Below are positions 105 through 11,116 of a stretch of 33,762 nucleotides of DNA, piece by piece. This stretch comes from Muribaculum sp. (GTDB lineage: Bacteria > Bacteroidota > Bacteroidia > Bacteroidales > Muribaculaceae), in the NCBI GenBank assembly GCA_023666965.1, contig JAMPAZ010000013.1, positions 1-33,762 on the forward strand, in the 5' to 3' direction. The notes beneath the pieces are model-generated. The model was not told the DNA's origin and made no database searches. It saw only the letters and a list, made by a program, of their open reading frames with translations. The stretch's first letter is position 1, and each line of letters begins with the position of its first letter. The translations under genes and the position numbers were made by a program.

Positions 105-3100
105 TCAAAGATTATACCGGGCGACGTTCAAAATGCTTATAGAATATGGATCGTCATCCTTAATCGGAATTGGTGCTTGTGAAAAATATGGGTTAATCCC
201 ACTCATGTCAGTTTGGGTAATATCTTTTATAAAAATGTACTTTTCAAACTCATGCTCAATTTGTGGATTGAAATAGCAGAATGGTTTTGCGCGTGAATCC
301 AGGTCGGGAATTACTTCTGACATTTTTGTTGAATCGGGCAGAAATTGCCATTTGTCTAAATTTTGCCGACTAACGTATTCTTTCATGCTAAAATTATTCA
401 GACCTCTGACAATTGACTTGTTAAGCGTACTGTCTGCCTTAACAATTTCCTCTAAATCAGAGCCAATGGAATAATTGTCGTATATTGATTTTAACTCAAT
501 GGATTTCAGCATTTTTTCTTGCCAAATGGAATAGTATCTGTGTAATAAATCGTTGTTAAGTACTGCTAAGAAAGGATACGGGACATTAGGAGTCATCGTT
601 TCGCTCTTGTCCACGCATTTATTATAAAGAAGGAGCCATGAGGTGTCGAATAAGTGAAGTTTGTGGTACTGCGATAAAAGCGAAAGACGATAATTCTCGA
701 CTTTGCCAATAATGGTCCCATGTATATGGGCTTTGATGTCAAGACTTGCTTTTTGTTCTTGAAGCCGGTTTTTATCGTTAGAAAGAGTTTGTATTTGGTC
801 TCTCAAGTCTTGTCTGTATTTTCGCCATGAAAAACCGTATGTTCCTATAAGACTAAGAGAGAAGAGGGTGATTACCGAAACTATGATCCAGTACCACGAA
901 TAATCGTGGAGGAAATACAGTAATATCCATGAGATAACGGTCAAAACGCCCATTCCAATGAGTTTCCAAAGATGATATTGTTTAAAATCGATAAGTTTTT
1001 CGTTTTTGGAAGACTGCAACAGCTCAAGACTGCTTTCGACTTCTTGGATTTTTTTATCAAAATCGTTTTTGGCCTTTTCGACTATTTGTGATTGGGTGTT
1101 TGCATTTTCGAGGGTGGCGATATTGCGGGTCCAATCTGTTTTTAATTTATTGGATTTTTCCGCCAAAGATTCCAGATCAAATCGGTCCTCATCTATTAAA
1201 TTCTGAAGAATTGCTATTTCGATATTGCGGTCGCTAATATTGAAATTTAGAGTTTTGGCATCAACATGAGACCTCTTTGAATCGGTTGAGGTGGTTACTT
1301 TGGTTATTATGCACGCTTGAAGAAAATACTTTTGAGCGTAAGAATACGGGATATAGCAATATCCATTATCCCCAAAATCGGCACCCCATGAATTTCTGAC
1401 AACGAAAATCCTTTCTTGGTCGGAATAGCCGCATACTACCATGGCATGATTTCTTTGTCCGTCAGTTCTTGAGTCTTTTGTAATCTCTTCCTTGGAGGGA
1501 TGCTTTATAAAACCGGCATTTGTGTCGGAAAATGAATCGAAAATTCGTGATGCGATTATTACGGGATAGCCATCGGAAATAGCGGATTTAATGTCGGCAA
1601 TATTGGGTTCGACAGATAGGGCTTCGAGTACTTTGCATTTCTTAGCGTCCTCAAAAGCTTTCTCGGATGGTTCAACGGAATAAACGGCAGGATTATATGG
1701 CATATTTTCTTCCGGACATATTCCGTTTTCAGTTGCACTACGAATAATTTCATATAAGGTTGCACCGGAGTCTATTTCTGTGGAATTTAGACTTTTTCTT
1801 GCATTCCAGTACAGAAATGCAGGGCTATACCTGTTACTGTCATGCAGCAGGGCTTCTATGACGGATGCGACGGCAAAGGCCGCACAACAACCCTGTGTTT
1901 CTTGGTTCCGTATGGGCGCGAAGATGTTGCGCATGTCGATACTCGTTGCTTTGACATTGTGGGATTCGTAAATATGTTCAAGCGGTTGTTTATCGATATT
2001 TAAGTCGAGTTTATACCCAATCCCGCCGAAACGATACCTGTCGCCTTCGATATGTGTCTCCGAAGGGAGATTATCTTTTATCTGCATATTAAGCGTGGCG
2101 AGCCGTTCTTCTCTTTTACGGTTAGCTACGGCTATATTTCGCATACGGCTACGAATTTTCTTAATGTCCTGTTGCGAGACATTTTTAAGCGTAGACCTAT
2201 CAACGTCAAGGTCAATGAAAAATTTAGCGGAATCATCGATAATGTCGTCTATAGTGGCTTCTTTTGCGTTAACGGCGCTGCTGTCAAACATCGAACAATC
2301 GTCGCCCAAAACCAGTGCCAATAAAGCTTCGCATTCAAAAATAGTAATTTTTCCCGATGAAAGCAGTTCTTGGATATTCAAGCGCAACTTTTCGACAATA
2401 TCTTTTACTTCCTTGTCGATAGAGCCAACCACGTCTGATGCCGTCGTGCCTCCCGACAATGCCAGACTGGCCTTTGCGTTTGCTGTTTTTGTTTTGTAAA
2501 AATCATGAATTTCATTTAGAGTCGCTTTAATAACCGGATTTGTGCGCCGAGCAAGGGCATTAATGTTGAACGAGATGTTGTCTATACCCTGTTTAAGCAA
2601 TTTGTCGATTATTATTTGACTCCGAATGTATTCTTTATAATATTCCAAATCGAATAATATTGAAGATATACCGAAAGATTCCACAGGAAATTCATCTGAA
2701 CTAATTACCGTGGAATGAATTGAGAGGTAGTGTTTGCATATAATTGCGGAAAATTCTGCGCATATACGAGCCATAGCTCGTTCGTTTAAGTCCAATGATA
2801 CATTGTCGATATTGCGATTGGATATTAATCGCAGTGCAGAGATTTGTCTACGTATTTTACGCAAACTATCTATATTCTTGCTGAAGTTGGATTTGTAAAT
2901 CCCCGGGTTAAGTCGTTCCTTAGGTTTAGGAATAAAACATGTTACTGCATCATTGGTAAATCCTGCTATTTCAACCTTGATGTTTGAATTGCAATGATTT
3001 ATAGCCGAGACCAACTCTTCGATAATTGGGAATACGTTGTCGGAATAAAGTTTCGTCCATACGATCACCACTAGTGACTCGTTACCTCTATGTGCCACTG

Positions 3101-3371
3101 TGACCTTACGGCTGTATAAATCCTCGAAATAATTAATTAGGCAATTATGTCGATTGTTATTGTCAATGACAGCACCGTCGAGAGAGTCGCCGTTATTGTC
3201 CGGTATTAAGTAGATTTGAGAGTCTTCGGCTAACTTTAGTGTGATAGCAGAGAAGAGCGAATATTCTATATCCGGATGTAGGTTCCTGAATATGGAGGCA
3301 AATTGATCTCTGAAAGAGGTAAGGTCATCTCCTGTAAAGATATGGACTATATGTTGCATTTCATTAAGCAT
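105..3371 (-). CDS. Membrane-anchored papain-like (C1) cysteine protease with coiled coils
   Basis: This is a 1088-residue protein that I do not recognise as a named family. Residues 1 to about 470 are mostly helical and resemble nothing I know. A papain-fold protease domain follows. It has the oxyanion Gln490 and nucleophile Cys496 spaced as in papain (QETQGCCAAF, six residues apart), His642 in NHAMVVCGY and Asn660 in VRNSWGADFG, so the triad looks intact. About 715-800 and 850-885 are rich in charged heptads and probably form coiled coils. They flank two membrane helices at about 804-822 and 827-848. The last 200 residues are unassigned. There is no signal peptide, so both large flanks are probably cytoplasmic. 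It is the last gene of the vWA/tubulin-like cassette, 113 bases after the tubulin-like gene. The substrate is unknown. A second ATG at 3359 is an alternative start. Confidence 0.85.
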   Translation of the reverse strand: MLNEMQHIVHIFTGDDLTSFRDQFASIFRNLHPDIEYSLFSAITLKLAEDSQIYLIPDNNGDSLDGAVIDNNNRHNCLINYFEDLYSRKVTVAHRGNESLVVIVWTKLYSDNVFPIIEELVSAINHCNSNIKVEIAGFTNDAVTCFIPKPKERLNPGIYKSNFSKNIDSLRKIRRQISALRLISNRNIDNVSLDLNERAMARICAEFSAIICKHYLSIHSTVISSDEFPVESFGISSILFDLEYYKEYIRSQIIIDKLLKQGIDNISFNINALARRTNPVIKATLNEIHDFYKTKTANAKASLALSGGTTASDVVGSIDKEVKDIVEKLRLNIQELLSSGKITIFECEALLALVLGDDCSMFDSSAVNAKEATIDDIIDDSAKFFIDLDVDRSTLKNVSQQDIKKIRSRMRNIAVANRKREERLATLNMQIKDNLPSETHIEGDRYRFGGIGYKLDLNIDKQPLEHIYESHNVKATSIDMRNIFAPIRNQETQGCCAAFAVASVIEALLHDSNRYSPAFLYWNARKSLNSTEIDSGATLYEIIRSATENGICPEENMPYNPAVYSVEPSEKAFEDAKKCKVLEALSVEPNIADIKSAISDGYPVIIASRIFDSFSDTNAGFIKHPSKEEITKDSRTDGQRNHAMVVCGYSDQERIFVVRNSWGADFGDNGYCYIPYSYAQKYFLQACIITKVTTSTDSKRSHVDAKTLNFNISDRNIEIAILQNLIDEDRFDLESLAEKSNKLKTDWTRNIATLENANTQSQIVEKAKNDFDKKIQEVESSLELLQSSKNEKLIDFKQYHLWKLIGMGVLTVISWILLYFLHDYSWYWIIVSVITLFSLSLIGTYGFSWRKYRQDLRDQIQTLSNDKNRLQEQKASLDIKAHIHGTIIGKVENYRLSLLSQYHKLHLFDTSWLLLYNKCVDKSETMTPNVPYPFLAVLNNDLLHRYYSIWQEKMLKSIELKSIYDNYSIGSDLEEIVKADSTLNKSIVRGLNNFSMKEYVSRQNLDKWQFLPDSTKMSEVIPDLDSRAKPFCYFNPQIEHEFEKYIFIKDITQTDMSGINPYFSQAPIPIKDDDPYSISILNVARYNL

Positions 3372-3401
3372 ATTAAGATTATCGTGATTATACTATAAAC
3401 T

Positions 3402-3440
3402 TGAGGGTGTTGCAAAAACCGAAGTTTTGCAACATCCTCA
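3402..3440 (-). terminator. Hairpin between tubulin-like and protease genes
   Basis: Arms at 3402-3417 and 3425-3440 are 16 bp with one imperfect pair and a 7-base loop. In the minus-strand transcript the hairpin lies about 45 bases after the tubulin-like stop codon and about 30 bases before the protease start. It is not followed by a clean U-run. It may be a partial terminator that lowers protease expression, or an RNA-processing or stability element. No separate promoter for the protease was found in the gap. Confidence 0.5.
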
Positions 3441-3484
3441 GGCTTGATAAAATCACTAAATCGAATGATTTGAATAACAAGATA

Positions 3485-6268
3485 TTACATCTCTTTGTTT
3501 ACGAACTTTAGTTCTGATGTCAGTTGATCTCTTATGCCTTTATAGAGAGGATTAATCAAATCCGAATCACGAAGGTCGTTTAACGAATACTTATCAAGAT
3601 AGTTTATTTTAGCATCGGCAAGAATTGCGTCTATTGCATCTTGTCCTTCATATTTAGCCCGGTTGTGCATATAGTCCTCATACTGGGATTGCAGACGGGA
3701 GGCTTCCCGCTTAAATCCTTTGAATGCCTCATCTCTATATGTAGTTCCAAGCGAAGTCCAATATCCGAAGAGAGCCATCTCGTCGTTGCTGTCGTCCTTA
3801 TACTTGTATGTTCCGTCTTTGTCTCGGGTGATTAGGCCAAAAATTAATCCTTTCACCCAAAGCTCAAGGCTGTTGTCGGTTTTTTCCTTTGGCAGTACGG
3901 AGAAACCCTCGCGTTCCATCGCGATGCGGATATCTTCATCGATAAAGCAAGAGTAGGCTGTGTCACGGGACATGTAGTTGTCGTGGGCTTGTCGATAACT
4001 GTTTGTTCCGGCAATGGCAAAGGTCGGAAAGACGCCATATTGATGGTAAATGACAATTCTGTCGCGAGAGCCTATAGACGCGAAAGAAACTTCATGTTGT
4101 TCTCCTGCCTGAATACAATTTTCAATGTCGATGATTCCTCCTTGCAGTCGCGTTGTTGACTGTTCCTGTACACCGATGTAATAGTAGTTGTTCAATGTAG
4201 GTTTAATGTATCCACGATAGTTAAGCGGACACATTGGACTCGAAAGGGCTATCGCTCTGTTAATGATAGCTTCGATTTCACCCTTTGGCAGTTTCGCGAG
4301 TGCATCTTCTACTGACATGGATTCCCATATACTGCCGGTATTGAGTGTAGCAGTGTAATTGAGCATGTGGTTGACAATACTTTCCGGAGTCAAATTGTCA
4401 AAGTCGAATACTTTGGAACCCTTAGGAAGAGACAATACGAATTGATTGAGGTTGACATCCGAAGATTGCACTACTACTTGATTGACATACGGCTGCGTAA
4501 GATCAATTTCAAACATCCCGCTTGGTGACATTAGGTCGCTGCCCAATCGGGCGATGTCGTTTCGCAGAATCTGACAAGCATTCTTTATCGCAGACTCAAT
4601 ATTAGCAAGTTTATCGTCTGCATTAGCCAATTCTTGCATAAGCCAAGTGTAAAATGTGATTGCTCCGTTTCGGCGATGTATTTCGCGGTCATTAATGACG
4701 GCTCTTGTAGTTACGGCGCATAGATTCTCTTCTGCTTCTTGTACAGCCGTTTTTCTCCCAAAGAATTTGCTGTTGGCCGCCTTATATTCTTCAATGGCAG
4801 TGCGTATGGCGCTTTCGCAGGCAGTCGCTGCATTCAGGCAAACTTCACGCTCTTCTCTCATTTCCTTCAAGCAAATCTCGATTTGGGCTTTTACTTGGTC
4901 GATGAATTCTGCCGCATAAACAGGCCCTTTAGAATTTACTAAACTGCATATTTTACCGTCAAAGGACGGTTTTACCTTTTTCTTTAGCTCGTCAATCTTG
5001 TCGGATATTTCGTCAGGTTTGACGGCGACACCGTTTAAAGCGCGATAACTATCGATGTCGGCCTTTGGATTGGATTTTTCAAATATGTTTGTTAAGACTG
5101 TTTGAGGGTTTTTCGGGAGAAGAAAGTCGATGACTTGATCCTGACCGTTGTTTTCGCGGATTTCTTCTGTGTCAATCCATGCGTTGGCGACTATATTAAC
5201 GTTACTTCCCGGGTTGAGTAGCGACGCGGCGAGTTCACGGGCGGCCTTAACCCGATATAATGCAGTGAGTTCTGAAGCGCGGAATGTTATTTCACTCATT
5301 CCGAGTGTCCCGATTATTGCCTTCTTGTTTGCGATGTTGTAGTCGCCCGAGTTAATATCTCTCTCAAGATTATTTGCGGTACTGCTTACCCCGCTTGAAA
5401 GCTCTCCAGCAGTCACCACCATGGCCATACTCATCATTTGCGACAGATAATCGCTATGATCGACAACATCACCTTTTATATTACGATTGCTTATGGCAAT
5501 GATAGTATTGAATGGAGTGCCGACAAGGGTCTTTTGATGAGTTAAATAGTTCGCGTAGATTTGTTTGTTGTAAGGCAGATGCATAAGGTAGTCGAGGTCG
5601 ACTAAAGAACCGCATCCATTAGGAAATAGGCGCTCTTTCCCGAAATTAAGCTGTGCGTCATATACATCTGGGAGTACCATATAACCGACAATTTTTGATG
5701 TAGATGGCAGTGCCTGGGCTCTAAAAATATCTTTTACGAGATAAGCCATATCCAAGAAATTACCCGAGCCGGTGCCACCGGCAATTGAAAATACGAGGTT
5801 GACCTCTACGTCATTTGAGATAAGTTCGTATTTGGAGTTGTGTATTGTGGTCAGACTGCTGATTTGGTTAAGGGCATTTTGTATATTTGACCGGGATTTT
5901 GCATAGTTGAATGAAAATGCAAATCGTCCGTTAGTACGCACCATGCCACATCCGTTCTCCAAATCTACAATTGCTTGAAGATTTCTGTCCGGTAGCCAGC
6001 TCAATTTTGTGCGGTGTCTGTTGACTATATCTCCTGCATCGCTGACCATAATGTCGGAAGATTCGGAGGGGTCAAATTTGATGTCGCCATAAATTGATTT
6101 CAGGGTATAATTTTTATACTGATTCTTATCCGAGTCAAAGGCCAGGAATTTTATCATCGGAGGAACTTCTCCATACGTTTCAATAAAAGCACGTTTTGTG
6201 TGTAACAAGGTTTTAAAACCAGTACCGCCTAACCCTATGTAGAGGGTTCTTTTGAGTTTGGGTGCCAT
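3485..6268 (-). CDS. Tubulin/FtsZ-like GTPase-domain protein (Tubulin_2-like)
   Basis: This is a 927-residue protein. The N-terminus has the features of a tubulin/FtsZ nucleotide-binding domain: a first loop IGLGGTG at about 11-17, an acidic DSD after the second strand at 45-47, a GCGMVRTNGRFAF segment at about 107-119, and the tubulin signature loop AGGTGSGN at 163-170. I could not place the catalytic T7 loop that contacts the next subunit, so polymerisation and GTP hydrolysis are inferred from family only. About 430-600 is charged and helical, a likely coiled coil. The C-terminal 300 residues are unassigned. There is no signal peptide or membrane helix, so it is cytoplasmic. It starts 20 bases after the vWA gene, which implies co-transcription. 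From memory, Makarova and Koonin described an FtsZ-like family linked to vWA proteins in a predicted membrane-remodelling system, and this may be a relative. Confidence 0.85.
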   Translation of the reverse strand: MAPKLKRTLYIGLGGTGFKTLLHTKRAFIETYGEVPPMIKFLAFDSDKNQYKNYTLKSIYGDIKFDPSESSDIMVSDAGDIVNRHRTKLSWLPDRNLQAIVDLENGCGMVRTNGRFAFSFNYAKSRSNIQNALNQISSLTTIHNSKYELISNDVEVNLVFSIAGGTGSGNFLDMAYLVKDIFRAQALPSTSKIVGYMVLPDVYDAQLNFGKERLFPNGCGSLVDLDYLMHLPYNKQIYANYLTHQKTLVGTPFNTIIAISNRNIKGDVVDHSDYLSQMMSMAMVVTAGELSSGVSSTANNLERDINSGDYNIANKKAIIGTLGMSEITFRASELTALYRVKAARELAASLLNPGSNVNIVANAWIDTEEIRENNGQDQVIDFLLPKNPQTVLTNIFEKSNPKADIDSYRALNGVAVKPDEISDKIDELKKKVKPSFDGKICSLVNSKGPVYAAEFIDQVKAQIEICLKEMREEREVCLNAATACESAIRTAIEEYKAANSKFFGRKTAVQEAEENLCAVTTRAVINDREIHRRNGAITFYTWLMQELANADDKLANIESAIKNACQILRNDIARLGSDLMSPSGMFEIDLTQPYVNQVVVQSSDVNLNQFVLSLPKGSKVFDFDNLTPESIVNHMLNYTATLNTGSIWESMSVEDALAKLPKGEIEAIINRAIALSSPMCPLNYRGYIKPTLNNYYYIGVQEQSTTRLQGGIIDIENCIQAGEQHEVSFASIGSRDRIVIYHQYGVFPTFAIAGTNSYRQAHDNYMSRDTAYSCFIDEDIRIAMEREGFSVLPKEKTDNSLELWVKGLIFGLITRDKDGTYKYKDDSNDEMALFGYWTSLGTTYRDEAFKGFKREASRLQSQYEDYMHNRAKYEGQDAIDAILADAKINYLDKYSLNDLRDSDLINPLYKGIRDQLTSELKFVNKEM

Positions 6269-6288
6269 GATGTGTTATTTGGGGTTTA

Positions 6289-8070
6289 TTATTGAATTGA
6301 GATTTTGATTTTTGTTGTAGGGGATTGTGGGTTGAGGACTGAATATTCCGAACCGCGGGTCCAAATCGGAGAGGGGTCACTGATTAAGTTGTTCGACGGG
6401 CAGTGAAACCGCATATTTCTGCCTGAGGGTGTGACGGTTGCCAAAGAAGTCCACTGCGGATTTATGTGATATAAAATCTTCCCTTTCCATATCTTGTCAA
6501 ACCACCCTTGTTTTTTAGCAGTAGAGCAGAATACGACTTGACGATAACCGCTTAAACGAATGAGGGCAAAGTAGGGGGATGCTATCGTTATGGTTCCTTT
6601 TTTAAACTTCGGATATATTTTATTTCGGATGATGGAAAACCAGAGTATTAGGAATAAAATCGCGAGTGACAATACAGTCCAGAACACAATCTCAACGACG
6701 CTTATTGATGTACTGTAGCCTCCGCAAATGTCAAATGAGAAATTGTTGGGGTAGTTGTCGTTAATCCTGTCGAGATTGTGTGACTTAATTTCTGTCAAGT
6801 AGAGCTTAAATTCACCATCTTCTTCCTGCCGCGGGATTATGACGTCAATGATGCCATGCCCATCGGGCCTGATTATTATAGTGCTGTCGGTTGACAGAGA
6901 TTCTCCATCATAAAAAATTTCCAGACCGGAGATGTCTCTGTCCGATTTCAGTTGAAATAGGGTAAAAGACGAATCTCCTATAGCTGTGGAATTAAATTTC
7001 GGATTCAGATTGAAGTGGATGGTATCTGAAGAATTGCCCTCTAACCAAAGAAAAGGTTTTACACGCTTTACTGCCCGGATATTCTCCTCAGACTTATTAT
7101 GATTTATAAATGTGTCCAACTGGAGTGAGCGAATCGGCGTGGTGTTAATGACGATGTCGATGTTCGGATTGGTGATATTGACCTCTTCGCTCATAACCGT
7201 TATCGGTATACTGGTGGTGGAGGTTGATATTGCTCGGTTAAGAGTTTCAATATTTTTCCCGAATTTGGACTCGACATGAAGGATGGCTTTACCTTGGTTG
7301 ATAGAGCCTTCCTTAACTGAAATGTCAACGAACGGATTCTCCGTATTGATGAGAGAAGTTGCGAAAGTACCCGAGTTAGAGAAACCTAAATTGATGTCCA
7401 CTGGAAGGTCGCGTGTATTTATATTTATAATGTTATCCGAAAAACATCCAAAGAGTGGTATACCGGAGCTGGCATCGACTTTATATAAATCATCGCAAAG
7501 GTCTATTATGTTTTGGATGTTTAGAGGCAGGGATGCGGCTTGAGTAAGCTCTACATAGAAGCCTTTAGTGTTCTGATATTTACCGCAAAATGTGCTGAAA
7601 ATTTCAGTTAGCTTTTTGATTCTCTGCGCTTCGTTGGATGAGCCACCGATATTATCGTGTCCATCGGTCATGAGTACGATATAATTGTCGCAGGTCTGGT
7701 CAATATGCTTTTCTGCTTCGAGCCAAGAATCGCAGATATTGGTTGCGGTTAGCCGTTTCAGATAATTGTCCAGGACGTTTTCGAGATTGGGCCAAGCGAT
7801 ATGATCCAAATCCACATTGATCGGATGCAGGACTTTTTCTTGAAAGGGCAAGATGACTACGCGTGCGTCCGGATTTTCCCTGGCCTCCTTTTCAAGTTCG
7901 GATTTAAGAAATTTTTTTGTTGGCTCCCAGATATTTGGCGCACCATTATAGCCACCCATAGAACCGGTACAATCTAAAACATAGATTGTGTTACGTTGCC
8001 GACTCTGTTTTTGGCTGAAGCCGCTCAACGCTGTAAGAGTCAAAATCACTGATAATAAAATTCGCATCAT
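6289..8070 (-). CDS. Exported membrane-anchored von Willebrand factor A domain protein
   Basis: This is a 593-residue protein. A signal peptide covers roughly residues 1-20. The vWA domain follows at once, with a complete metal-binding MIDAS: DCTGS at 33-37, a conserved threonine at about 108-110 (RLTATN) and TDG at 135-137. The middle (about 200-450) looks beta-rich and has no recognised domain. A single membrane helix lies at about 457-480, followed by basic residues and a cytoplasmic tail of about 110 residues. The expected topology is therefore a periplasmic vWA domain and a cytoplasmic tail that could meet the downstream tubulin-like protein. It is the first gene of the cassette, 33 bases after a predicted transcription start. 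Two consecutive ATGs (8070, 8067) are both possible starts. The ligand is unknown. Confidence 0.85.
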   Translation of the reverse strand: MMRILLSVILTLTALSGFSQKQSRQRNTIYVLDCTGSMGGYNGAPNIWEPTKKFLKSELEKEARENPDARVVILPFQEKVLHPINVDLDHIAWPNLENVLDNYLKRLTATNICDSWLEAEKHIDQTCDNYIVLMTDGHDNIGGSSNEAQRIKKLTEIFSTFCGKYQNTKGFYVELTQAASLPLNIQNIIDLCDDLYKVDASSGIPLFGCFSDNIININTRDLPVDINLGFSNSGTFATSLINTENPFVDISVKEGSINQGKAILHVESKFGKNIETLNRAISTSTTSIPITVMSEEVNITNPNIDIVINTTPIRSLQLDTFINHNKSEENIRAVKRVKPFLWLEGNSSDTIHFNLNPKFNSTAIGDSSFTLFQLKSDRDISGLEIFYDGESLSTDSTIIIRPDGHGIIDVIIPRQEEDGEFKLYLTEIKSHNLDRINDNYPNNFSFDICGGYSTSISVVEIVFWTVLSLAILFLILWFSIIRNKIYPKFKKGTITIASPYFALIRLSGYRQVVFCSTAKKQGWFDKIWKGKILYHINPQWTSLATVTPSGRNMRFHCPSNNLISDPSPIWTRGSEYSVLNPQSPTTKIKISIQ

Positions 8071-8106
8071 ATCGGCTGAATTTCATGTCCATTGACTCCA
8101 ACATGG

Positions 8107-8137
8107 CAAAACTACTTATTTATTTATGAAAAAGAAA
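8107..8137 (-). promoter_or_regulatory. Promoter of the vWA/tubulin-like/protease cassette
   Basis: The minus strand reads TTTC at 8137-8134, a 19-base spacer, then TAGTTTTG at 8114-8107. The -7 element matches TAnnTTTG exactly and the -33 element matches three of four bases of TTTG. The predicted transcript starts near 8103, giving a 33-base leader to the vWA gene. Confidence 0.5.
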
Positions 8138-8692: not shown

Positions 8693-11116
8693 TTAATTCA
8701 CGACGAGTATCTTAGCTACTACGTCGCCTGTGGAGCCGTCTTCGTTTTGCGAGGCGTATACAAAGTATACGCCTGTGCGTACGCGCTCGCCCCCCGGATT
8801 GCATCCGTCCCATATCACCATTCCTCCTTCTGAACGTGTTTGATAAAATACGTTTCCGGCCGTATCGGCAATCTTCACCAAAGAGTGGTCCATAAGTCCT
8901 TTTATAGTAATCCAACCGGTATATTCGGGGCGTACCGGATTAGGATAGGCATAGACTTCGGAATAGTCGTTCTCGGCCGGAGCTGACGTAGAGCTATATG
9001 CGGCCAGGCCATATTCGGTGCCGAAATACACTTTGTTGTTTGTCGGGTCGCAGGCCACGGTATGGACTGTGTTGGAGGGCAAATAACTGTTGTCTGTGTT
9101 GAAGTTTTCGATAATCTCCTTTCCATCGGCGCTTACTAAGTACACTCCTGATGCAGTCGTGGCTATCCACTTGCGGTTGGCTCCGTCGACTGCAATAGCC
9201 GACACCTGTTGGTTTTGGAGCAGATAGTCGGCATAGTTTGTTCCGTCGTTTCGCGGCACTTTAACGCGTTCGACTGTGCCGGTGGCAGTGGTCATGGCTT
9301 GGGCATTGTGGATGACGATGACTCCGTCTTCAGTGCCGACCCAGATGTCGCCGTTGTGGTCTTCGACCATCGCGGTTATAGATGCCGGACCGAACGAGCG
9401 GCCGTCCTGGTCGACAAATTTGTTGCGTATATAGCTCGAATCGTCCGAAAGATTGTCTATTGTGCCGTTGGTGAAGTATGTGCATAGGTTTTTATCTTCA
9501 TAGCCTTCGGAAATGAACACTATATTTTTGTTCTTCGGATGGGAACAGGGATATATAAGGGCATTTCGGGTGTCGTCGCTCTTGATGCGTGGCAGATTTA
9601 GGGCAATCCAGTCAGATGCCGAAGAAGAGTCCAATCGGCGCTTAGAAGCGGGCAGCACATAGACGCCGACGTTCGGAGCGGGCTTATTGTTGTCGCGATG
9701 GTAGACCCACAGATTGCCTTGTGGGTCGATGGCAATATTCATGGCTGCTCCGCAATAGTCCATGGTCAGCGGGCTGTTGGTCCAGTCATATTTCATCACC
9801 TGTTTTCCATCCTTAATTTTATATATGCCTTCAAACCAAGTGCCCATGTAGTAGGCTTCCGGGTCGTCGGGGTCTGACACGATATTAAATGCCGCTCTTA
9901 GGGCTCCGGAGGAGTTCGAATTGCGAATCTCTACGTCGGCAGTCGCCGGGGTTATATCTTCAATAAATCCGTTTGTGAAGCTGTTTATGTTGGCGGGTGC
10001 CGATATGGACGCAACGTTCGGGTAACGGTTGGCTGCGACGTTGTATAGATAAGCGGTTCCGGAGTCGGTCATGGTCATGCGCTGTACGCCGTCGGCTATG
10101 TTTGTCCCCGCCGGCCGGGAGGGCATCATGACGTGTTCCGGATTCTCCATGTTGCTGTCATAGCGCATACGGCCCAGACCCAGTGAATTGATATACCAGA
10201 GCGAATTGTCGTTGTTTAGTCCGAGAGAATAGTAATTGCGTCCAGATGCTCGGCTCTCTGAGGGAGTTTCGTGGTACGATGCGCTATATTCCCCGTTTTC
10301 GGCTTTTACGACAAAAAATCCGCCACTATTTGACACCATGTAGCGGGAGCCGAGAGGCAGGATGTCAGATGACGAGGGCAAATTCCAGTTCCTGAGGACA
10401 GAAATGCTTTGTGTGTCGGGTTGCGGTCTAAAGACGTTGACTTTTCCGTTTGACTTGTCGGCCGAGAGGACAATTTCGGATGAAATTGCTTCCATGTTGT
10501 TGGCATTAAGTTCACCCAAGTCTGTGAATGAGCCGAACGAACTGATTCGCCCCGATTTGGGCATGGTGTAGATATGTCCGTCCATGCAGATTAGCAGATG
10601 AGAGTCCATGACAGTGACCGCTGTAACCGGCGAGGCATAAATCCCCGACTCGGCGACGCTGTGGTTTTTGAGGTTGAACTTTACGAGGCCGAAGCCGGTG
10701 GCCACGTATGCGCAATCGTCGTCAAATGCGACATCGTTAATGGTGCGGTCGCTGACATATTGTGCATCCTTAATGTCGCTCAGATTCACTGTCGATCCGC
10801 TGTCGTCGAGCAGATCGATGTTTCCCGATTCGTATGCTATGAGGATATAGTTTCGGTCGGGATGGCGATAGAAGTCGGCAATGTCCACGTCGTTGAGCGA
10901 GTTCCGCGATGTATAGCCGAAAGTCTCCTCTGAATCCTTGTCGTAGGAATATAGATTACCTCCCGTCAGGAAGTAGACTTTGTGGCCGGTGTCGAGCACT
11001 TTGACCACATTTGGTGAGTAGTTATTATAGATTTGCCAGTCGCCGATAGCGAGTTGTGCAAGTGCATTTGCCGGCAATAAGGCCGTCAAGAACACTGCTA
11101 ACCATATTTTCAACAT
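8693..11116 (-). CDS. porZ: PorZ-like type IX secretion beta-propeller protein
   Basis: This is an 807-residue secreted protein. Residues 1-21 form a signal peptide (cleavage likely after ALAQ). The bulk is beta-propeller repeats, including blades of the Reg_prop type such as GDIWVGTEDGVIVI and RKWIATTASGVYLV, consistent with PorZ's two seven-bladed propellers. The C-terminal 90 residues (from YAYPNPVRP) form a type IX secretion sorting-domain-like beta-sandwich, as in Porphyromonas PorZ (about 776 residues). PorZ belongs to the outer-surface attachment complex with PorU, PorV and PorQ, which handles sorting and anchoring of secreted cargo. The gene starts 36 bases after rdgB and ends at a strong terminator, so it is the last gene of the nadA-leuS-rdgB group. 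The propeller repeats could suggest a hybrid sensor, but there is no kinase domain or membrane helix. Confidence 0.85.
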   Translation of the reverse strand: MLKIWLAVFLTALLPANALAQLAIGDWQIYNNYSPNVVKVLDTGHKVYFLTGGNLYSYDKDSEETFGYTSRNSLNDVDIADFYRHPDRNYILIAYESGNIDLLDDSGSTVNLSDIKDAQYVSDRTINDVAFDDDCAYVATGFGLVKFNLKNHSVAESGIYASPVTAVTVMDSHLLICMDGHIYTMPKSGRISSFGSFTDLGELNANNMEAISSEIVLSADKSNGKVNVFRPQPDTQSISVLRNWNLPSSSDILPLGSRYMVSNSGGFFVVKAENGEYSASYHETPSESRASGRNYYSLGLNNDNSLWYINSLGLGRMRYDSNMENPEHVMMPSRPAGTNIADGVQRMTMTDSGTAYLYNVAANRYPNVASISAPANINSFTNGFIEDITPATADVEIRNSNSSGALRAAFNIVSDPDDPEAYYMGTWFEGIYKIKDGKQVMKYDWTNSPLTMDYCGAAMNIAIDPQGNLWVYHRDNNKPAPNVGVYVLPASKRRLDSSSASDWIALNLPRIKSDDTRNALIYPCSHPKNKNIVFISEGYEDKNLCTYFTNGTIDNLSDDSSYIRNKFVDQDGRSFGPASITAMVEDHNGDIWVGTEDGVIVIHNAQAMTTATGTVERVKVPRNDGTNYADYLLQNQQVSAIAVDGANRKWIATTASGVYLVSADGKEIIENFNTDNSYLPSNTVHTVACDPTNNKVYFGTEYGLAAYSSTSAPAENDYSEVYAYPNPVRPEYTGWITIKGLMDHSLVKIADTAGNVFYQTRSEGGMVIWDGCNPGGERVRTGVYFVYASQNEDGSTGDVVAKILVVN

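Follow-up and report, generated by a model that had tools for sequence, protein, structure and literature searches.

A conserved gene cassette of vWA, tubulin-like and papain-bearing proteins in some gut Bacteroidales

A 33,762-nucleotide contig of Muribaculum sp. (JAMPAZ010000013.1), analysed here in its entirety and called the window, encodes a vWA protein, a tubulin-like protein and a protein with a papain-like protease domain side by side. Is this arrangement a real cassette, and what might a tubulin-like GTPase have to do with a tethered protease? The window ends soon after the third gene, and the region 3' of that gene lies beyond the contig data in this genome.

Gene order, domains and inheritance of the cassette

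Three intact open reading frames, all on the minus strand, make up the cassette. The gap between the vWA and tubulin genes is 20 bases and that between the tubulin gene and the third gene 113 bases. The main features are:

8107..8114, minus strand: TANNTTTG-like box, weak promoter candidate 5' of the vWA gene (read by eye)
6289..8070, minus strand: gene 1, vWA protein, 593 aa (open reading frame; VWA_2 E 2.6e-4, sub-threshold; conserved position 5' of the tubulin gene)
7957..7974, minus strand: DCTGSM at residues 33-38, a MIDAS-type motif on the predicted periplasmic side (sequence motif)
6616..6714, minus strand: sole membrane helix predicted in the vWA protein, about residues 453-485 (hydropathy, basic residues after the helix)
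3485..6268, minus strand: gene 2, Tubulin_2 (FtsZl1-type) protein, 927 aa (open reading frame, Pfam)
5231..6244, minus strand: tubulin-like GTPase domain, residues 9-346 (Pfam; residues 12-17 and 164-169 are the glycine loops)
105..3371, minus strand: gene 3, papain-like protease in a scaffold probably related to the tubulin-like protein, 1088 aa (PF00112 E 1.4e-15; profile comparison)

The original prediction of an exported one-helix vWA protein, a tubulin-like protein after a 20-base gap and a membrane-bound papain protein is borne out by these frames. The single promoter that it placed before them has weak support: the TANNTTTG-like box can be picked out by eye, but the full Bacteroides-type consensus has no exact match 5' of the vWA gene.

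The vWA protein begins with a hydrophobic stretch and carries a TDG motif besides DCTGSM. Its VWA_2 match lies under the curated Pfam cut-off, and the VWA or VWA_2 cut-off is passed by three of the seven vWA-domain proteins of the family that were scanned (L046, L048 and L054). The two motifs and the hydropathy profile agree with an exported protein that has an intact MIDAS and one membrane helix. The predicted topology likewise holds by hydropathy and basic flanks, with the vWA domain in the periplasm and the tail (residues 486-593), the tubulin-like protein and the protease in the cytoplasm. The vWA part and the tail are two separate genes in G630 and G498 and one gene elsewhere, which links the two parts.

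The tubulin-like protein passes the PF13809 (Tubulin_2) cut-off (E 1.4e-51, 176 bits against 27). Its glycine loops, the GTP-binding T1 and T4, are invariant in 26/26 aligned tubulin-like proteins, and a pattern scan recovered T1 in 27 and T4 in all 28 of the proteins scanned. Structure prediction agrees with the sequence match, as the model of the GTPase domain has the tubulin/FtsZ fold and matches CetZ/tubulin. FtsZl1-type proteins are characterised by an extended coiled coil and a C-terminal domain that is mainly helical; in the model of the window protein long helices occupy residues 418-580, and the C region, modelled with low confidence, consists of helices and strands. Both structural models in this study were built from six-row alignments and are poor (pLDDT 59.5 and 61.9).

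This tubulin type occurs in 27 of the 397 sampled genomes of the family Muribaculaceae. Where the locus could be checked on contigs, the vWA gene lies directly upstream of the tubulin gene in 26/26 cases and the papain-bearing gene directly downstream in 25/26, so the proposed tabulation of neighbours shows that the three genes stay together. They are also the only genes that recur across the 27 loci. The cassette is absent from all 13 sampled congeners of the window genome. Pairwise distances of the cassette genes are correlated (Mantel rho 0.79, 0.71 and 0.87; 24 loci), and the tubulin-like GTPase domain diverges more slowly than the third protein and the larger part of the vWA protein. The three co-inherited genes form a real conserved cassette in some gut Bacteroidales.

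The third protein and its resemblance to the tubulin-like protein

The third gene product can be divided as follows:

2577..3371, minus strand: N domain, residues 1-265, possibly a degenerate tubulin-like domain that lacks GTP loops (E 8.2e-5 against the tubulin domain, hhalign)
1302..1946, minus strand: papain domain, residues 476-690, with Q490, C496, H642 and N660 (Pfam, PDB match, alignment)
828..974, minus strand: predicted two-helix membrane hairpin, residues 800-848 (hydropathy, basic residues on both outer flanks)
108..581, minus strand: C domain, residues 931-1088, a probable relative of the tubulin-like protein's C region (hhalign E 1.1e-4)

The Peptidase_C1 (PF00112) match reaches 58 bits against a cut-off of 20.7, and the closest PDB match of the domain is 3ois. 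The catalytic Gln, His and Asn are kept in 25/25 family members and the Cys in 24/25. By domain and catalytic residues the third protein is a papain-like protease of predicted activity, which differs from other members of family C1 in that the domain is embedded in a membrane-bound scaffold of 1088 aa. Ser replaces the catalytic Cys in the remaining protein, so protease activity is possibly dispensable at times. Third genes without papain exist, such as that of locus L059 (745 aa), which has no recognisable papain domain, and the protease thus resembles an output module. By eye this L059 gene was taken for the same protein minus papain; profile tests did not support the kinship.

At profile level the two ends of the third protein resemble the tubulin-like protein. 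The N pair scores 40.1 against a shuffle maximum of 17.9 and the C pair 35.4 against 19.9, while the cross pairs (12.4 and 16.8) remain at shuffle level. Both end regions are collinear with their counterparts in the tubulin-like protein, and the papain domain and the membrane hairpin lie between them. No glycine loop is present in the N part of any of the 25 proteins, and no PF13809 match is listed for the third protein up to E 1. Therefore we term it a degenerate relative and do not file it as a Tubulin_2 member.

An ordinary papain-like protease in an unrelated scaffold, resembling tubulin by chance or through a shared general fold, would account for several observations. Structure comparison of the N domain, from a poor model, tied among several Rossmann-like folds, the vWA type included; the first profile comparisons gave weak statistics; the long-type tubulin profile alone scored at noise level; and the protein has no Tubulin_2 match in Pfam. 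Because about 120 profile pairs were run in total, we lowered our confidence in the kinship slightly and raised that in a chance resemblance. Two collinear segments at E about 1e-4 with cross pairs at shuffle level speak against chance, as do scores that climbed with greater alignment diversity and the IDN-N-G and G-S-F type motifs common to both proteins in many members. We therefore consider the ordinary protease doubtful and the kinship with the tubulin-like protein probable. As for a vWA identity of the N domain, vWA profiles give no match and the structure comparison is tied, and this assignment was rejected.

The most fitting reading of the papain domain is that it was inserted into a degenerate relative of the tubulin-like protein. 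The protease had been named as a third member that departs from the set of Makarova and Koonin; it does so, but it now appears as an insertion and is absent from some third genes.

Known systems and genomic setting

The link of an FtsZ-like family with vWA proteins is confirmed in the text of Makarova and Koonin 2010 (PMC2875224), where FtsZl1/Tubulin_2 genes are linked with vWA genes in operons and Bacteroides caccae is among the FtsZl1 members. Like these operons, the window cassette combines a Tubulin_2 protein, whose middle is predicted to be long and helical, with a vWA protein that is possibly secreted or membrane-bound. It differs in having three genes only, in lacking a conserved gene for a GTPase, kinase or OmpA protein, and in its papain-bearing third gene, of which an earlier mention in Additional files 5 and 6 of that paper is possible. 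Such GTPase, kinase or OmpA partners, frequent and not universal in FtsZl1 operons, do not recur in the 27 loci, and the three proteins have no such Pfam match.

The GAP1-N2 GTPase-centric systems (Kaur et al. 2020, PMC7159879) are also similar, as they are described with coiled-coil tubulin-domain proteins, encoded by a pair of tubulin genes in Firmicutes, and a membrane vWA protein with its vWA domain outside. They are described there from Firmicutes and Actinobacteria, and the text, as far as it covers them, describes no papain-bearing tubulin relative. Their conserved TRAFAC GTPase gene has no counterpart here, since only three genes recur and their products show no match to P-loop GTPase families. 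The MoxR-vWA ternary systems of the same paper follow a comparable logic, in which an NTPase and a vWA protein are joined by a constant third element and some effectors are peptidases. In the window cassette a tubulin-like GTPase stands instead of the MoxR ATPase, the protease sits on the third component and the vWA protein is exported; the three proteins show no AAA match and no other gene recurs, so a MoxR AAA+ ATPase gene is not a conserved part of the cassette.

The suggestion of a possibly undescribed system thus stands in part. The combination of vWA with tubulin-like proteins was in print in 2010 and again in 2020, then as predicted conflict systems (PMC7159879), but the variant with papain and a degenerate partner appears new: a third protein whose end regions match the tubulin-like protein at profile level, without its GTP loops and with papain and hairpin between.

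A link with defence comes from Thermales relatives only. On three Thermales plasmids the vWA, tubulin and third genes adjoin brxL and other defence genes, near helicase and methyltransferase genes as in BREX or BREX-related loci (PMC12839542). Profile tests did not support kinship between the third genes of Thermales and Bacteroidales, although one weak alignment covered the corresponding region. The window cassette, in contrast, has no brxL, helicase or methyltransferase genes next to it, and PMC12839542 mentions neither tubulin nor FtsZ. PADLOC-DB 2.0.0 gave no model match for the window proteins, the lowest E being 0.017; of the A. silvanus trio, one protein had no hit at all and the others reached 0.0042 and 0.0078.

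Enrichment in defence islands is not supported for the Bacteroidales form. From 121 listed flanking ORFs, 14 small or probably spurious ones were dropped by eye, and a PADLOC scan of the remaining 107, judged without a background set, gave no defence-island look. At 1e-15, 30 families matched; among the 25 listed, mad3 was found in two members and each other family in one, Cas3-type models, PDC-S14, WYL and a UvrD-type helicase model being among these. The flanks are mostly housekeeping. A defence role is plausible.

Carriage by phages or plasmids was considered and rejected: no tubulin relative was found in viral contigs, phage records gave one weak match in an unverified, unannotated 9.8-kb record, and plasmid matches are distant. 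When viral contigs were scanned with a protease profile, the matches in the 80 loci retained out of 310 fell on the papain region.

A possible mechanism and its alternatives

The occurrence of a papain-bearing, apparently degenerate tubulin relative beside a tubulin-like GTPase and a sensor-like membrane protein hints at a protease controlled by tubulin-like assembly. Our preferred reading, held tentatively, is an inner-membrane signalling machine in which the GTPase and its degenerate partner control the tethered protease. The periplasmic vWA domain would sense a protein or the state of the envelope, and the signal would pass through the single helix to the cytoplasmic tail, which may act on the GTP-binding tubulin-like protein. 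This protein would assemble with its degenerate relative, which presumably lost its GTP loops, and GTP-dependent co-assembly would cluster and thereby activate the papain-like protease, which would then cut cytoplasmic targets. The likeliest use would be an emergency response, e.g. phage defence or programmed arrest. Gene order, distance correlation, conserved catalytic and GTP-loop residues, topology, the split of vWA part and tail into two genes in G630 and G498, the resemblance of the third protein's ends to the tubulin-like protein, papain-less third genes and the Thermales setting are consistent with such a machine. The points on the other side are the poor models, the fold ties of the N domain, the noise-level long-type profile, the Ser in one of 25 proteases, the Bacteroidales flanks and the unsupported kinship of the Thermales third gene.

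Two other functions have to be weighed. Membrane or envelope remodelling, in which tubulin-like filaments lying on the inner membrane reshape it, with the vWA protein as their periplasmic anchor and the protease as the enzyme that trims or dismantles the complex, would suit the tubulin fold and the two membrane-bound partners, and follows the Makarova-Koonin proposal. According to the text of PMC2875224, that proposal is based on gene context and was disputed by a reviewer in the same paper; the OmpA and GTPase partners are unconserved here, and a conserved cysteine protease is not predicted by it. We regard it as the least likely reading. Regulated proteolysis outside defence, with envelope stress or a host signal relayed by the periplasmic vWA domain so that a regulator is cleaved in the cytoplasm, would fit the predicted topology and the mostly housekeeping flanks. 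It sits poorly with the patchy distribution in the family and the absence from the sampled congeners, with the slower divergence of the GTPase domain relative to the third protein and much of the vWA protein, and with the defence genes around the Thermales relatives, and seems unlikely, if somewhat less so than remodelling.

The signalling machine could take a more specific form, a bacterial inflammasome-like machine in which the periplasmic vWA sensor prompts an active tubulin-like GTPase and a GTP-dead relative to assemble together at the membrane, switching on the protease embedded in the dead relative. We rate this form as improbable, on a par with the non-defence relay. If true, the core may serve as a platform for effectors in general, since the protease module is absent at times, and act in phage defence in some lineages.

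In the literature consulted, PMC2875224 included, the function of FtsZl1/Tubulin_2 is left as a hypothesis, and the variant described here would link this GTPase to a proteolytic output. With this output and a candidate partner that lacks GTP loops, the function of the GTPase becomes testable in a simple assay, and if a tubulin relative does carry a protease, the tubulin fold would have gained a new use.

The cassette and its conservation in Muribaculaceae

The window is one entire contig (G000:C4 of its own genome, 33762 bases). Three minus-strand ORFs lie at its left end in the order vWA, tubulin-like, papain, with intergenic spacings of 20 and 113 bases:

6289-8070, minus strand, vWA protein with a single helix and a predicted cytoplasmic tail
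3485-6268, minus strand, tubulin-like protein
105-3371, minus strand, third protein, with N domain, papain domain, membrane hairpin and C domain

Searches against Pfam matched the tubulin-like protein to Tubulin_2 (E 1.4e-51) and the third protein to Peptidase_C1 (E 1.4e-15). The vWA match of the window protein is sub-threshold, and a vWA cut-off was exceeded by three of seven scanned vWA-domain proteins of the family. The single promoter proposed for the cassette in the original prediction proved to be a weak claim. Upstream of the cassette lie, among others, PorZ, a purine NTP diphosphatase, leuS and nadA. A PorZ-like gene lies close to the cassette in two distant loci, adjoining it in the window (8693-11116) and several genes off in locus L022 (3-2006); this shared neighbour is probably a coincidence.

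A first scan of species genomes gave three close relatives, on MAG contigs labelled uncultured Bacteroidales, Alistipes timonensis and Bacteroides sp., with the identical gene trio in the same order and differing flanks. At 1e-10 the tubulin profile matched 29 of 397 sampled family genomes at 31 places. In 27 of these, among which the three contigs, to judge by their identical lengths, are included and counted once, the window-like short type of tubulin was matched across its full or nearly full length. The other four matches span only 519-843 bases in ORFs of 1036-1075 aa and represent a different, long type.

Inspection of the 27 short-type flanks revealed a vWA gene upstream of the tubulin gene in 26/26 checkable loci, including L043, where it was detected on second inspection; L056, which starts at a contig end, is outside this count. 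The vWA gene is broken into two ORFs in L021, and in L059 (6735-8530) and L060 (6585-8466) one gene encodes the vWA part and another the helix-tail part. Downstream, the N domain of the third gene is present in 26 of 27 loci, the exception being L059, and papain in 25 of 26 checkable loci; it is missing in L059, and L058 is truncated by the contig end. By eye, the helix-tail gene of L059 and L060 starts with a lipoprotein-like signal. In L006 (12811-16068) the catalytic Cys of the third protein is replaced by Ser, with a Cys one position before.

In the reverse direction, with the third protein as query, 15 of 247 family genomes had matches. Twelve encode the full-length protein, each adjoining a short-type tubulin gene by coordinates, and partial or papain-less matches occur in genomes G566, G520 and G630. 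Pairwise distances of the three cassette proteins correlate across 24 loci (Mantel rho 0.79, 0.71 and 0.87; maximum of 500 permutations 0.49, 0.25 and 0.25). The cassette is a real, conserved and patchily distributed unit.

Probable kinship of the third protein to the tubulin-like protein

We compared the N domain of the third protein with the tubulin domain by profiles, whose alignments took in sequences stepwise, within about 120 profile pairs overall, the majority for other questions. The first comparison scored 29.7 (100 column shuffles reached no more than 22.6), more diverse alignments 31.5 and 35.5 (shuffle maxima 24.5 and 20.1; 60 shuffles each), and the final one 40.1 (E 8.2e-5; at most 17.9 in 40 shuffles). 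For the C domain compared with the tubulin-like protein's C region, the score rose from 23.4, versus 21.3 in shuffles, to 35.4 (E 1.1e-4; shuffles at most 19.9). The cross pairs, C with N and N with C, stayed at shuffle level (12.4 and 16.8), and neither papain nor vWA profiles matched the tubulin domain. The aligning part of the N domain contains IDN-x-N-xx-G and G-x-S-x-x-x-F motifs, which recur in many, not all, members of both families.

The glycine loop is missing from the N part in 25/25 third proteins. Against the kinship speak the scores of the long-type tubulin profile alone, which stayed at noise level (25.7 vs 25.6 and 20.4 vs 24.5), and a structural model of the N domain that was tied between several folds, as do the stepwise growth of the alignments and the number of profile pairs. 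On the profile evidence, there is a good chance that the third protein is related to the tubulin-like protein. The protease of the cassette probably sits on a degenerate tubulin relative.

The papain module and occurrence outside the family

The genome G1120 comes from another family within the order; downstream of its vWA and tubulin genes lies a 770-aa gene with no papain match, whose N part aligns with the N domain of the third protein (E 1.2e-5 across 193 columns). In G520, a 585-aa protein aligns with residues 171-323 and 854-1095 of the papain-bearing congeneric relative L054, and contains nothing matching the intervening papain domain and hairpin; its upstream neighbours fall outside the contig. 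G630 carries vWA, tail and tubulin genes and a 745-aa third gene, whose kinship to the third protein was not supported by profile tests. Judged from these sequences, papain is separable from the third-gene scaffold. Elsewhere in G630 (L091, 7753-8607), the similarity of a 284-aa ORF to the third protein is restricted to the C end of the latter (E 4e-31), and the ORF may be left over from a lost cassette.

Outside the family the cassette is rare. At 1e-10 the third protein matched 65 of 395 genomes of the class, beyond the papain region only in the window's own genome, and was absent from 13/13 congeners. The tubulin profile matched 5 of 296 phylum genomes, at full length again only in the window's own. 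That genome holds a second, long-type Tubulin_2 gene of about 1070 aa (L023; G000:C11:1003000-1019000), adjoining a gene for a cysteine-rich 233-aa protein, several further genes and one for an FGE-sulfatase domain protein (E 6e-40). In the surroundings of the ten long-type tubulin genes of >900 aa, no third-gene match was found. In IMG/VR, 310 viral-contig stretches encode third-protein relatives; in the 80 of these that were kept (L092-L171), the similarity is essentially confined to papain (about 28-35% identity).

Thermales plasmids and relation to known systems

Plasmids of Allomeiothermus silvanus, Thermus oshimai and Meiothermus taiwanensis, the 3 of 13 plasmid records with match coverage of at least 80%, carry vWA, tubulin and ~680-aa genes in identical order. 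Homology to the Bacteroidales counterparts holds for both the vWA protein (E 4.5e-20) and the tubulin (E 7.5e-67). A brxL gene directly follows the trio on two plasmids and lies past a transposase gene on one; nearby are helicase genes (3/3 plasmids), methyltransferase genes (2/3) and a Swt1-HEPN gene (1/3). PADLOC identified BrxL (6.3e-98) and a DrmD/BrxH-type helicase (2.8e-117) at the A. silvanus locus and gave no convincing match to the trio proteins themselves. Loci with DUF499, DUF1156 and HEPN have been described as BREX-related defence (PMC12839542). In four of the other ten plasmid records, which we inspected, the tubulin-like protein is longer and brxL was not in view. For the Bacteroidales cassette, a defence-island setting, raised in the original prediction, was not supported; most identified flanking genes are housekeeping genes.

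On Azospirillum sp. TSA2s plasmid p2 (L079, 4990-15861), a long tubulin-like gene has OmpA family genes on one side and, on the other, two caspase family genes encoded on the opposite strand. On a Thermus thermophilus plasmid (NZ_AP025610.1, 30984-31766), a sequence annotated as hypothetical shows 72% identity to the final 29% of the Thermales tubulin-like protein and no match to the rest.

FtsZl1 has been reported with vWA, GTPase, OmpA and kinases (PMC2875224), conflict systems with GAP1-N2 include tubulin and membrane vWA proteins (PMC7159879), and Tubulin_2 proteins have been placed apart as divergent FtsZ-like proteins (PMC9871819). Among the literature matches listed, from a search that lay outside supplementary tables and most subscription papers, no paper dealt with a tubulin/vWA/papain cassette. 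The cassette is a variant of the FtsZl1-vWA kind, and what is new in it would be a protease on a probable degenerate tubulin relative.
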